From Solibacillus silvestris (GTDB lineage: Bacteria > Bacillota > Bacilli > Bacillales_A > Planococcaceae), in contig CP014609.1 in NCBI GenBank assembly GCA_001586195.1, positions 780,001 through 844,000 on the forward strand: DNA of 64,000 bases, in the 5' to 3' direction. Positions 26,416-63,458 of this stretch are shown one piece after another. The notes beneath the pieces are model-generated. The model ran no database searches and was not told the origin of the DNA. It worked only from the letters and a program-made list of their open reading frames with translations. The translations under genes and the position numbers were made by a program. Within the stretch, counting starts at the first letter, position 1. Every line of letters starts with the position of its first letter.

Positions 26416-26619
26416 GTTGATTGGAATGGAGGGGAGGCGAGTGTTCGTGCTGACGGTTTCGCCTTTCGCACTGTTAAAACACTAGCTTACGGCTAACGCC
26501 TTTCGCTACAAACTGCGTTTCCTGCCGGAACAAGGAACAAAAGCTAAGATCGCCACGTCCTGTGGCAACGCTTTTGTGACCAACATCATGTTGGCCTCTG
26601 ACCCGTAATGGAAATCAAC
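26416..26619 (+). repeat. Structured intergenic repeat, two-hairpin type (rseP-proS gap)
   Basis: The ends form an inverted repeat: GTTGATT (26416-26422) and AATCAAC (26613-26619). The right half has two 5-bp hairpins with 5-nt loops: GCCAC-GTCCT-GTGGC (26552-26566) and CCAAC-ATCAT-GTTGG (26580-26594), exactly 13 nt apart. The left half shares AGGCGA...TCGCCT with the copy at 21751. No gene is present in this 385-nt gap. Confidence 0.75.
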
Positions 26620-33136: not shown

Positions 33137-33250
33137 TTGTTTACACAACTATTTAATTTCAACGAGCAAGTGTTCTGATTTTTGTGAGTGGAGTTAAACC
33201 TCTGGCGAATGTCGCAGATTTTATAATGAAAAAAGAAGTCCGTCTAACGC

Positions 33251-33293
33251 GTCGCATCGTGCGGCAAAGACTGGCTGACCCACGTCCTGTGGG
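33251..33293 (+). repeat. Two-hairpin module of the intergenic repeat family (polC-rimP gap)
   Basis: GTCGC-ATCGT-GCGGC (33251-33265) and CCCAC-GTCCT-GTGGG (33279-33293) are two 5-bp stems with 5-nt NTCNT loops, 13 nt apart, as in the copies at 26552, 38998 and 63264. The stem sequences differ from the other copies but still pair. The flanks are not clearly conserved. Confidence 0.7.
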
Positions 33294-33420
33294 CCTCAAA
33301 AAGAAATCTGGACGCCATTGCATTTAGTTGTAAATGTCCAATTTTTTCAATGAAAACTCGTCTTTTGTTTAACCAATACTATGAAGATCTAAAACAAACA
33401 AAGACGTTAGGGAGGATACG

Positions 33421-38871: not shown

Positions 38872-39045
38872 GAAGGGGGGCGACTCCTAGGAGATCAGCG
38901 TGTGCGGAAAATCCACTTTATCGCTGCCGCCGTAAGAGGTAGCGATAAAGTTAGTGGGAGCCACGCCCCCCAGGAAATTTGAACGAATGCTAAAACCGTT
39001 ACGTCGTATAACAACGCATTCGTGACCAACGTCCTGTTGGCCTCC
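38872..39045 (+). repeat. Structured intergenic repeat, long form (rbfA-truB gap)
   Basis: GGGGGGCG (38875-38882) pairs with CGCCCCCC (38964-38971), enclosing ACTTTATCGCT/AGCGATAAAGT (38915-38925/38941-38951). Then follow two hairpins: GTTAC-GTCGT-ATAAC (38998-39012, four pairs) and CCAAC-GTCCT-GTTGG (39026-39040), 13 nt apart. Much of the unit matches the copy at 63136. No gene in this 383-nt gap. Confidence 0.78.
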
Positions 39046-39122
39046 CGTAGCGGAGCAGAACGGATTACATGAAAAGCCCCACATAATTTACGGAAATGTG
39101 GATCTAACAAAGGAGCAAAACA

Positions 39123-41646: not shown

Positions 41647-41684
41647 GATACGTAGAGTGTTTCAATAAGAAAGGGGTTCATTTA

Positions 41685-43799
41685 ATGAACGAAAAAAAGG
41701 TCTTTTCGTATGAATGGGCAGGCCGTCCACTAACAGTAGAAGTAGGACAGCTGGCAAAACAAGCAAATGGTGCTGCAATGATCCGCTACGGCGAAACAGC
41801 AGTTCTAGCTACGGCAACAATGTCAAAACAACCAAAAGCATTAGATTTCTTCCCGTTAACAGTAAACTTTGAAGAACGTCTATATGCAGCAGGTAAAATC
41901 CCTGGTGGTTTCATTAAACGTGAAGGACGTCCATCAGAAGCGGCAGTATTAACTTCTCGCCTAATTGACCGTCCAATCCGTCCTATGTTCCCGGATGGTT
42001 TCCGTAACGAAGTACAATCAATTTTAATGGTTATGTCAAATGATTCAAACTGCCCTGCTGATGTAGCGGCAATGTTTGGTTCTTCATTATCATTAGCAAT
42101 TTCTGATATCCCATTCGACGGACCGATTGCAGGTGTACATGTAGGATATATCGACGGTGAATTCGTTGTGAACCCGACTGTAGAACAATCTGCTAAATCG
42201 ACTGTTCACTTAACAGTAGCAGGTAACAAAGACGCGGTTAACATGGTAGAAGCAGGTGCTTTAGAAGTAACTGAAGATATTATGCTTGAAGCGATCATGT
42301 TCGGTCATGAAGAAATTAAAAAGTTAATTGCCTTCCAAGAGCAAATTGTTGCTGAAGTTGGTAAAGAAAAACTTGAAGTAACATTATATGAATTAGATGC
42401 AGACTTAACAGCAGCGATCAAAGCTGAATGTGAAGCTGATATGAATACAGCGATCCAAACAGTGGACAAGCAATTACGCCAAGAAAATATTACAGCAGTA
42501 AAAACACGTGTAATCGAAGCTTATGAAGCGCAGGAAGCTGACGAAGCTACGATGAAACAAGTGAATGCTATTTTAGATAAAATGGTAAAAGATGAAGTGC
42601 GTCGTTTAATTACAGAAGATAAAGTTCGTCCGGATGGTCGTAAGCAAGATGAAATCCGTCCACTTTCTTCTGAAGTAGATTTATTGCCACGTGCACACGG
42701 TTCAGCATTATTCACTCGTGGACAAACGCAAGCATTATCAATTTGTACTTTAGGTGCTTTAGGCGACGTTCAAATTATTGACGGCTTAGGTATTGAAGAG
42801 TCAAAACGCTGGATGCACCACTACAACTTCCCTCAATTCTCGGTTGGGGAAACAGGCCGTTACGGTAGCCCAGGCCGTCGTGAAATTGGTCACGGTGCAT
42901 TAGGTGAGCGTGCGATTTTAGCGGTAATGCCAACAGAAGAGGAATTCCCGTATGCAATCCGTTGCGTATCGGAAGTATTGGAATCAAACGGTTCTACTTC
43001 TCAAGCATCAATTTGTGCATCAACAATGGCACTTATGGCTGCTGGTGTTCCAATTAAAGCACCGGTTGCAGGTATTGCAATGGGTCTTGTTAAAAAAGGC
43101 GAACACTATACAGTATTATCAGATATCCAAGGTATGGAAGACCACCTTGGCGACATGGACTTTAAAGTGGCAGGTACAGCTAAAGGTGTAACAGCACTTC
43201 AAATGGACATTAAAATCGATGGTCTGTCTCGTGATATATTAGAAGAAGCATTAACACAGGCGAAAATCGGCCGTATGCACATTTTAGAGCATATGATGTC
43301 AACGATTTCAGCGTCTCGCACTTCATTATCACAATACGCACCAAAAATCGTTTCAATCAAAATTAATCCTGACAAAATCCGCGATGTAATCGGACCGGGT
43401 GGTAAAGTCATCAATAAAATTATTGATGAAACAGGCGTTAAAATCGATACAGAACAAGATGGTACAATTTACATCGCTTCAGCTGATGAAGCAATGATTA
43501 ACCGTGCTAAAGAAATGATCGAATCAATCGTACGCGAAGCTAAAGTAGGCGAGTACTACTTATCAACAGTAAAACGCATTGAAAAATTCGGTGCATTCTG
43601 TGAAATCTTCCCAGGTAAAGACGGCTTACTGCACATTTCGGAAATTCAGGAAGAACGTACGAAAGAAGTAGAAGACGTATTAAAACTAGGCGATGAATTA
43701 CTTGTGAAATGTATCGAAATCGATAAACAAGGTCGCGTAAACTTATCACGTAAAGTAGTAATCAAAGAAGAAAAAGAGCGCGCAGAACAAGGAAAATAA
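41685..43799 (+). CDS. pnp: Polynucleotide phosphorylase
   Basis: 704 residues: two RNase PH domains (first with [20 protein letters not shown], second with RTDGRK-like [14 protein letters not shown] and [13 protein letters not shown]), then KH ([20 protein letters not shown]) and S1 ([19 protein letters not shown]) domains. It degrades RNA 3'-5' by phosphorolysis. AAAGGGG precedes ATG 41685. It follows rpsO as in many bacteria but with a terminator and a hairpin between. Confidence 0.98.
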
Positions 43800-51728: not shown

Positions 51729-51842
51729 TGAGGATTATAGAGGATGAACTGAGAATTATTCATAACTAACTGAGGATTATTCGTCAATGCTTGAGGATTA
51801 TCCGTCACCAGCTGAGGATTACACAGTTTAAACTGAGGATTA
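51729..51842. repeat. Six-copy TGAGGATTA array with 21-nt period
   Basis: TGAGGATTA (one copy TGAGAATTA) starts at 51729, 51750, 51771, 51792, 51813 and 51834: exactly 21 nt each time. The 12-nt spacers differ. It sits between the dapA terminator and rnjB, and the plus strand has stops in frame. The minus strand stays open across the array (NPQxxxx repeats) but has no ATG. Confidence 0.85.
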
Positions 51843-53698: not shown

Positions 53699-53806
53699 GA
53701 TGATTGGAATGAAGGGGAGGCGACTCCAGCGGGAACAGCACGATGCCTGAGACTACAGGCTCAGGCCGTGCCCGCGGAAAGCGTCCGACCCGTAATGGAA
53801 ATCATC
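53699..53806 (+). repeat. Intergenic repeat, short palindromic form (rnjB-ftsK gap)
   Basis: Ends pair: GATGATT (53699-53705) and AATCATC (53800-53806). The core has GCGGGAACAGC...GCCGTGCCCGC and CCTGAG...CTCAGG pairs. GGAATGAAGGGGAGGCGACT matches the left end at 26416. It lacks the two-hairpin module. I recall similar sequences in other Bacillales gaps but cannot verify that here. Confidence 0.7.
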
Positions 53807-62393: not shown

Positions 62394-63038
62394 GCGCGGA
62401 TTTTATTAGCGGGGTTTGGTGGGGAAGTAGAAAGTATTAAAGGTAAAGTAGAAAGTTCTGCGACTAAAGTAGAAACTATTCTAGGGAAAGTAGAATGGCT
62501 CGCTAGAAAAGAAGAAAGCGCGGATTTATTAGCCGAAGTGCGTGGGAAAGTAGAATTTATTGAAATAAAAGTAGAAAGTTTTATGGCGAAAGTGGAAACT
62601 ATTTATGGAAAAGTAGAACGGAACGCCTGAAAAGTAGAAAGTGCTAATTTTATTAGCTGAGTTGCGGGAGAAAGTGGAACGTATTGAAGAGAAAGTAGAA
62701 AGTTTTGCGGCTAAAGTGGATACTATTCATGGAAATGTAGAACAGAACGCCAGGAAAGTAGAAAGCGTTGATTTATTAGCTGAGTTGCGTGGGTAAGTGG
62801 AACGTATTGAAGAGAAAGTAGAAAGTTCTGAGGCTAAAGTGGAAACTATTCATGGGAAAGTAGAACAGATCGCCCGGAAAGTAGAAGTGCAAATTTTATT
62901 ATCCAAGTGACTGGAGAAAGTGAAATGTTTTGAAGAGAAAGTAGAAAGTTCAACGTTTAAAGGAGAAACTATTCAAGGAAAAGTAGAACAGGTAGCCCGC
63001 AAAGTAGAAAGCCAAATTTTATTAGTCAAGTTGCGTTA
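62394..63038. repeat. AAGTAGAA array: 21-nt subrepeats in five 123-nt units
   Basis: AAGTAGAA/AAGTGGAA words recur at exactly 21-nt steps: 62425, 62446, 62467, 62488, 62509, then groups starting 62548, 62672, 62795 and 62918 with the same steps, each group of five separated by 39-40 nt. Unit starts are 123-124 nt apart. 62394-62424 matches a unit tail, so a partial sixth unit precedes. The + strand reads as KVExxxx heptads, but TGA, TAA and a 1-nt insertion break it. I see no gene here. Confidence 0.85.
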
Positions 63039-63135
63039 AAGCGTAAACTTTAAAGTTAAAGGCAATAAAATTCAACAAACCTTTACCCAAATTAAATAAG
63101 AACCCCAAACCCCATACCAAACCTTAGTTGTGCGG

Positions 63136-63317
63136 AGTGTAGGGGCCGACTCCTTGGGGATTAAGCGTGCGCGGAAAATCCACTTGATGTATGCCGTCGT
63201 AAAGGCATACATCAAGTTAGTTGGAGCCACGCCCCCAGGAATAATGGAACGAATGCTAAGATCGTCACATCGTGTGACAACGCATTCGTGACCAACCTCA
63301 TGTTGGCCTCCCGGAAC
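63136..63317 (+). repeat. Structured intergenic repeat, long form (before ymfF)
   Basis: ACTTGATGTATGCC (63182-63195) pairs perfectly over 14 bp with GGCATACATCAAGT (63204-63217). Two hairpins follow: GTCAC-ATCGT-GTGAC (63264-63278) and CCAAC-CTCAT-GTTGG (63292-63306), 13 nt apart. Long shared stretches with the copy at 38872, including GCGGAAAATCCACTT and GAGCCACGCCCCC. Confidence 0.8.
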
Positions 63318-63458
63318 GCAGCACAACGAACCCAATTAGGAAACGCAGAAAGCGTGAATAAAATTAAAAATCAAAATAACGGATTTTAATTTAAAACCGT
63401 TCAAACTTTTCATTCATAAATGTCACGAATTAGGGAACACTTAGTACGGATAATAACT

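Follow-up and report, generated by a model that had tools for sequence, protein, structure and literature searches.

Bacillaceae-1 (RF01690) elements in Solibacillus silvestris: a structured repeat probably carried by MITE-like palindromes

Four paired-hairpin sites in a 64,000-nucleotide stretch of the Solibacillus silvestris genome (contig CP014609.1, positions 780,001 to 844,000; hereafter, the window) are members of the known RNA family Bacillaceae-1. On balance, and in preference to a dedicated host sRNA, we read them as copies of a non-autonomous, structured interspersed repeat that MITE-like palindromes have largely spread as their cargo. New here are the larger palindromic hosts, of at least three unrelated kinds, the within-genus scatter of 3 to at least 69 copies per genome, and a predicted folding advantage of the reverse strand through near-invariant G.U pairs, a CsrA-like reading of that strand being already in print. 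These results matter for the annotation of RF01690, which is catalogued as an sRNA gene without an assigned function.

Four full-length members of a known family

In a cmscan of the window, all four sites matched Rfam RF01690 over its full length (positions 1 to 67 of 67), with scores of 52 to 78 bits against a curated cut-off of 35 and E-values of 1.3e-12 to 9.8e-7, and the window gave no RF01690 match besides these four, either over the cut-off or up to an E-value of 1. A model built from 39 copies of the S. silvestris genome, the four window copies included, recovered the four in the window and nothing further there, even at E<=10 (Table 1). The first-pass annotation, made from the letters of the window, had recognised no named family; the family is Bacillaceae-1. 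Its account of the hairpins was borne out by direct reading. Hairpins H1 and H2 begin at 26552 and 26580, 33251 and 33279, 38998 and 39026, and 63264 and 63292; all eight loops (GTCCT, ATCAT, ATCGT, GTCCT, GTCGT, GTCCT, ATCGT and CTCAT) fit NTCNT, the spacer between H1 and H2 is 13 nt in all four copies, and the stems pair as claimed, H1 at 38998 with four of five pairs. The module extends further than had been described, starting 23 to 24 nt further 5' and measuring 66 to 67 nt, and it includes an overlooked outer helix, P1, of 7 bp (e.g., CAAAAGC/GCTTTTG). A conserved AAGGA-like 5' motif is followed by P1, which encloses H1, and then by H2. The spacing is constant because 7 of the 13 spacer bases are the 3' arm of P1. 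Folded singly as plus-strand RNA, the four window copies were moderately better than shuffles (z of -2.30, -1.98, -1.33 and -2.16). Copy 1 neighbours genes that we take, from gene order, to be rseP-like and proS-like; the neighbours of copy 2 are presumably polC-like and rimP-like, and those of copy 3 rbfA-like and truB-like.

Table 1. Bacillaceae-1 cores and palindromic repeats located in the window
Feature	Positions	Strand	Evidence and remarks
Bacillaceae-1 (RF01690) core copy 1 (locus L008)	26528..26594	+	77.7 bits, E 1.3e-12; own-model match
Bacillaceae-1 core copy 2	33228..33293	+	52.4 bits; same site occupied in G001, G004, G006, G008, G012, G015
Bacillaceae-1 core copy 3	38974..39040	+	61.5 bits; site occupied in G001, G006, G008, G012, not G004
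Bacillaceae-1 core copy 4	63240..63306	+	73.1 bits
Type A palindromic host of copy 1, ends GTTGATT / AATCAAC	26416..26619	+	direct reading
Type B host arms of copy 2, GTCGCAGATTTT / AAATCTGGACGC	33199..33325, ends approximate	+	read and compared with other type B copies
Type D host of copy 3, extra long hairpin in left arm	38875..39056, ends approximate	+	reading; repeats D4, D17
Type D host of copy 4, ends GTTGTGC / GCACAAC	63127..63327	+	reading; repeats D4 and D17 common with copy 3
Core-less type A palindrome, ends GATGATT / AATCATC, tip GCCTGAGACTACAGGCTCAGGC	53699..53806	+	repeat D15; arms resemble copy-1 host

The motif was published in 2010 by Weinberg et al., whose table carries the entry 'RNA? 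Y, cis-reg? n' (PMC2864571). A passage of PMC4333381 describes two CsrA-site-like hairpins in the reverse complement of the motif and has its discoverers unsure of the strand. Further copies are mentioned in BSGatlas (8 in B. subtilis, previously unannotated; PMC8208703) and in the description of a Brevibacillus draft genome (10 copies; PMC5764928). A literature text search for the repeat letters CGCGGAAAGCGT gave no match.

The search for further copies that had been proposed at first pass found 39 in the S. silvestris genome (3.99 Mb), with 150 of 403 first-look candidates scored; 34 of the 39 are distinct, so that the copies are mostly non-identical. With further copies present and covariation well beyond controls (below), none of the three outcomes that the first-pass annotation had named as refuting was seen. 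The motif was carried by 35 of 61 genomes, our own included, and by all 16 of the genus, within which the number of copies per genome ranged from 3 to at least 69, the ceiling of the scoring. Across the class, where 12 candidates were scored per genome under stricter filters, it was present in 82 of 398 genomes (80 over the family cut-off) and 38 of 146 genera.

Other features were seen elsewhere in the window. A match to Listeria rliD on the minus strand (41657-41834), below cut-off at 37.5 bits against 50, lies antisense to the start of a 704-aa ORF at 41685, which we take to be pnp-like. Five intergenic direct repeats with a 21-nt spacing (TGAGGATTA...) occupy 51729-51842, and a 240-nt direct repeat in three overlapping copies (73-80% identity) lies at 62400-63009, just before the fourth module.

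Palindromic hosts and the states of individual loci

Many copies are embedded in larger palindromes, which belong to three or more unrelated kinds. Sorted by eye, the flanks of the 39 copies fell into several unrelated repeat types, among them A, B, C and D. Type A repeats have ends TTGATT/AATCAA, often within a longer repeat with ends GGGACA/TGTCCC, and read GAGG.TGGGACA / TGTCCCACCCTC at their ends in most copies read; type B ends are GTCACAGATTTTT/AAAAATCTGGAC, and type C ends are GTGAAACTTCAATCAG ... TTAATGCGGG. About 230 bp long when core-less and longer with the core or extra modules, type A repeats have MITE-like traits, being non-autonomous, repeated, highly folded and bounded by inverted ends, and no gene was seen in the type A letters read. 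The outer stems of the repeats vary together (TTGATT/AATCAA, TTGTTC/GAACAA, TTGTGC/GCACAA, GATGATT/AATCATC).

The same kind of host occurs with and without the core. A search of the S. silvestris genome with one type A repeat found both states, and in the ten core-less repeats read (L197, L199-L203 and L206-L209) a short tip, CAGGCTCAGG or one base off, takes the place of the core. The core-less palindrome of the window folds as one long hairpin, and its tip is short. After similar contexts had been merged (105 to 77), flank complementarity was compared with mismatched-flank controls: 21 of the 77 contexts fell in the top 10%, against 7.7 expected (p 1.5e-5), and 8 beat all 25 mismatched partners. 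Copy 1, with a left arm lengthened by extra modules, stood at the bottom of this ranking. It counts against the cargo reading that clear pairing arms surround the core in no more than 21 of 77 contexts.

The coding flanks of eleven S. silvestris copies were searched in five relatives (G001, G004, G006, G008 and G012), and 36 stretches were compared, covering ten of the eleven loci (an 81% match of L002 in G001 was left out); the flanks of L012 gave no match in any of the five. At L019, S. silvestris has the core in a type C copy with 5-bp ATAAA on both sides, G008 and G012 have the same repeat core-less, and G001, G004 and G006 are empty. The core of L016 is shared with G008, while G006 is core-less, G001 and G012 are empty and G004 keeps a remnant; that of L025 is also shared with G008, G012 being empty. 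At L007 the core is present in S. silvestris and G004, G001 is core-less, and G006, G008 and G012 have a plain terminator, as the last three also do at L003, where S. silvestris has the core, G001 is core-less and G004 has another palindrome. L004 carries the core in S. silvestris, and G012, the sole match, has the outer repeat without inner palindrome or core. A small terminator stands at L002 in G008 and G012, at L005 in G004, G006, G008 and G012 (G001 aligned on one side only) and at L010 in all five relatives; L013 gave a single stretch, aligned on one side only. At the presumed rseP-proS site, where S. silvestris has the core, G005, G007, G008 and G012 have similar arms with other tips. 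The core replaces a short tip, and no target-site duplication was found for the core itself, a further point against the cargo reading. A four-gene tree gave the order OWN,(G004,((G008,G012),(G001,G006))), on which the locus patterns need several gains or losses and which fits core gain or core loss alike. The empty sites, the core-less counterparts at the same loci and the spread of copy number within the genus argue that most copies are mobile-repeat cargo.

Two of these sites had peculiarities of their own. The G004 palindrome at the L003 site (L235, ends GAGGGC/GCCCTC) lies in a terminator loop, with the 8-bp loop sequence TATTTTTG on each side. At the L004 site, the G012 outer repeat (L237) reads TTATTAAGAAACG ... 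T-run hairpin, and the absence of the inner type A palindrome shows one more layer to be missing in some genomes.

Other copies adjoin rRNA and tRNA genes, as confirmed with Rfam and ARAGORN. In G351 (L155, L157, L158) and G049 (L156), the core runs right up to the 16S 5' end on the same strand; in G189 (L154) and G263 (L159) it occupies this position in inverted orientation. Between 0 and 2 bases separate the end of the core from 5S at L168, L169 and the S. silvestris locus L031, and 2 bases separate it from tRNA-Val at L164 and L176; L178 is between tRNA genes. Reportedly, an earlier study tied one motif class to rRNA clusters, with the reverse complement expressed there; neither the rRNA tie nor the reverse-strand reading is therefore new here. 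At L151, the core lies within a reading frame whose beginning matches a holin-like toxin (Hol_Tox, PF16935, E 8.7e-7); L152, which resembles this locus, gave no match in the same toxin search, and the core of L160 lies in what looks like a small toxin locus. Two tandem cores lie upstream of nusA in Lysinibacillus sp. BPa_S21 (L040, 8725-8963), the H2 loop of the first appearing to carry an insertion of another module. In G158 (L210-L217), half Bacillaceae-1 units are stacked next to a single complete core, either on one side of it or on both.

Covariation, strand and alternative explanations

The stems covary far beyond controls. Among the 39 S. silvestris copies, 96.0% of cells were paired and 12 of 17 pairs were changed on both sides, with a covariation score of 0.453 against at most 0.087 when slid. 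Among 105 matches, in an alignment that was fitted to the structure and in which two S. silvestris copies were counted twice (overlapping loci L019 and L027), 96.9% of cells were paired and the score, at most 0.122 when slid, was 0.722, a value reached by none of 500 shuffles; P1, H1 and H2 of RF01690 all covary in this set. Double changes occurred at 16 of 17 pairs, a count that 21 of the 500 shuffles also reach. With identical rows merged (105 to 95) and gapped cells set aside, wobble intermediates were rare (34 G.U and 22 A.C among 1603 stem cells), and 428 cells were changed on both sides. As a lead towards a pseudoknot between AAGGA and the H1 loop, columns 7 and 40 were associated (Watson-Crick 0.642 versus 0.527 shuffled, a column statistic that ignores relatedness), but all four pairs were present in only 41 of 95 copies. 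The first-pass annotation had seen in the stem changes a structure kept by selection. The module is indeed real, conserved and covarying, but the inference of selection is unsafe, because it is a high-copy, patchy repeat travelling within other repeats and because near-pure Watson-Crick swaps are also expected from fold-back copying of palindromes. Covariation within repeats is thus no proof of host function.

As RNA, the complement of the strand read at first pass probably folds better. In RNA folding, the reverse complement was more stable in 83 of 95 distinct copies (33 of 34 from S. silvestris and 50 of 61 others), with means of -25.9 versus -22.0 kcal/mol, whereas 73-mers drawn at random from the window showed the opposite tendency (mean +1.3, sd 4.1). 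The reverse strand folds better because bases mismatched on the Rfam strand form G.U on the other: columns 28/50 are pairable in 94 of 94 copies on the reverse strand versus 5 of 94 on the Rfam strand, columns 62/+1 in 83 of 93 versus 8, and columns 26/52 in 72 of 94 versus 17. Columns 27/51 are mostly unpaired on either strand (31 and 20 of 94), and columns 61/+2 pair on both (83 and 75 of 92). In the predicted reverse-strand RNA, H1 is extended towards P1 and includes a bulge and, in most cases, a single mismatch; H2 is lengthened too, and the loops are ANGAN, mostly AGGA. The count of G.U against A.C in the main stems was rejected as a strand test (34 versus 22; p 0.14, or 0.009 once the end pair is left out); its direction was opposite to that of the extension pairs. 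The G.U pattern could also arise if the sequence were conserved on other grounds. As to which strand folds, the wobble pairs suggest an answer that can be tested.

The compensating changes might owe nothing to selection on the RNA if one arm were re-copied from the other by fold-back (template-switch) copying, an explanation that we hold to be unlikely, though by no means negligible. It agrees with the 56 of 1603 cells that are G.U or A.C against 428 doubly changed, with similar arms carrying differing tips, and with locus L210 of G158, where three layers pair in mirror order outside the core (CTTCCGC/GCGGAAG, CTTTCG/GCGAAAG and CTTCTGC/GCAGAAG). Yet fold-back copying cannot correct loops and unpaired bases, which are conserved; moreover, the next left unit of L210 breaks the mirror order, and at 8 of 9 G158 loci read, among them L210, the left and right unit counts are unequal, so that ordinary slippage is also at work. 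The AAGGA-like motif, CTAA, the loop T, C and T and the core sequence are conserved across many families, which counts against a pure parasite as well, since such an element need not show this conservation. A host-serving RNA with the sequence of the opposite strand, whose two AGGA loops would capture a CsrA dimer and make the copies decoys or cis-acting control elements, is in our view unlikely. At least one GGA loop is present on the reverse strand in 85 of 95 distinct copies, the strand concerned is the better-folding one with its G.U pairs, CsrA was found in 79 of the 82 RF01690-positive genomes of the class (compared by hand), and a CsrA motif on this strand was proposed in the section of PMC4333381 cited above. 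However, GGA is completed by a variable loop base (GGA stands in both loops in 33 of 95 copies, in one loop in 52 and in neither in 10), and no CsrA match was found in G222, which has 7 copies (best E 1.2e-14), or in G293 and G114, with one copy each. The association is not significant within the family (19/32 versus 2/7, p 0.22), and the class-wide link is therefore largely taxonomic; a simple co-occurrence of the motif with CsrA everywhere was accordingly rejected, being strong in the class but with exceptions. Main-stem G.U pairs of the Rfam strand (34) are not rarer than those of the reverse strand (22), and the genes flanking copies 1 to 3 run with the Rfam strand, so that transcripts of these genes would contain the strand that has no AGGA loops. 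Some copies may nonetheless serve the host, whether via CsrA or in another way.

It also seems rather improbable that the core belongs to a module of terminators or mRNA 3' ends, with the type A repeat taking the place of small intrinsic terminators. Relatives do have a small terminator at L002 (two read), L003 (three), L005 (four), L007 (three) and L010 (five), sites at which S. silvestris has the large repeat, a T-run hairpin stands at the end of many type A copies, and the upstream gene is co-directional in 17 of 20 type A copies (p 0.0026; a hand count on rough ORF calls). But this evidence concerns the host repeat, core-less type A copies having identical ends, and the same hand count shows no bias in type B (4/10) or type C (3/5); copies also occur within apparent operons, such as the presumed rbfA-truB, and before rRNA and tRNA genes.

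Proposed spread and comparison with known systems

The reading that we favour is that the 66-67-bp core is carried in the tip of larger palindromes, the MITE-like type A and types B, C and D, and would be copied, exchanged and lost together with these hosts, other copies adjoining 16S, 5S and tRNA genes. Cargo propagation and exchange between copies, rather than a dedicated host function, would explain most copies. The strand opposite to that of Rfam would be the better-folding RNA, with two hairpins, and copies that are transcribed could incidentally bind a GGA-loop protein, putatively CsrA. More speculatively, and with considerable doubt, Bacillaceae-1 might be a tip-capturing module that settles by preference in the loops of further hairpins, whether those of palindromic repeats, of terminators or of its own copies, through fold-back copying, yielding nested palindromes in mirror order and spreading without a dedicated transposase.

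The search for a mobilising enzyme covered two transposon protein families, the Y1 transposase and the TnpB zinc-ribbon, and its negative outcome counts against the cargo reading. A RAYT/Y1 transposase was rejected as mobiliser, the S. silvestris genome giving 0 PF01797 matches in a search whose control was positive in E. coli. IS605/TnpB was rejected as the source of type C, with no TnpB zinc-ribbon match in the S. silvestris genome and no type C ends at 20 TnpB-type loci of relatives; around these loci, host-repeat ends gave no pair and four single matches to one end.

Compared with Bacillaceae-1 RNA as tabulated in PMC2864571, the window copies agree in sequence, in the three helices and in the loops, all four being over the cut-off, and the core shows no difference; the Rfam model is without the palindromic hosts, the core-less counterparts and the empty sites. 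The Bhal-1 stem-loop family of Bacillus halodurans (74 bp, 36 copies, as summarised in PMC2267715) is alike in size, copy number and host group. REP/BIME repeats, into which IS elements such as IS1397 insert (from the account in PMC1525189), are likewise palindromic repeats targeted by further insertions; in contrast to REP/RAYT systems, the S. silvestris genome is without a Y1/RAYT transposase match. By the description given in PMC3049150, the BOX, RUP and SPRITE elements of Streptococcus are similarly modular, structured, apparently non-autonomous, variable in make-up and inserted into one another, whereas here a single core recurs in unrelated hosts across many genera.
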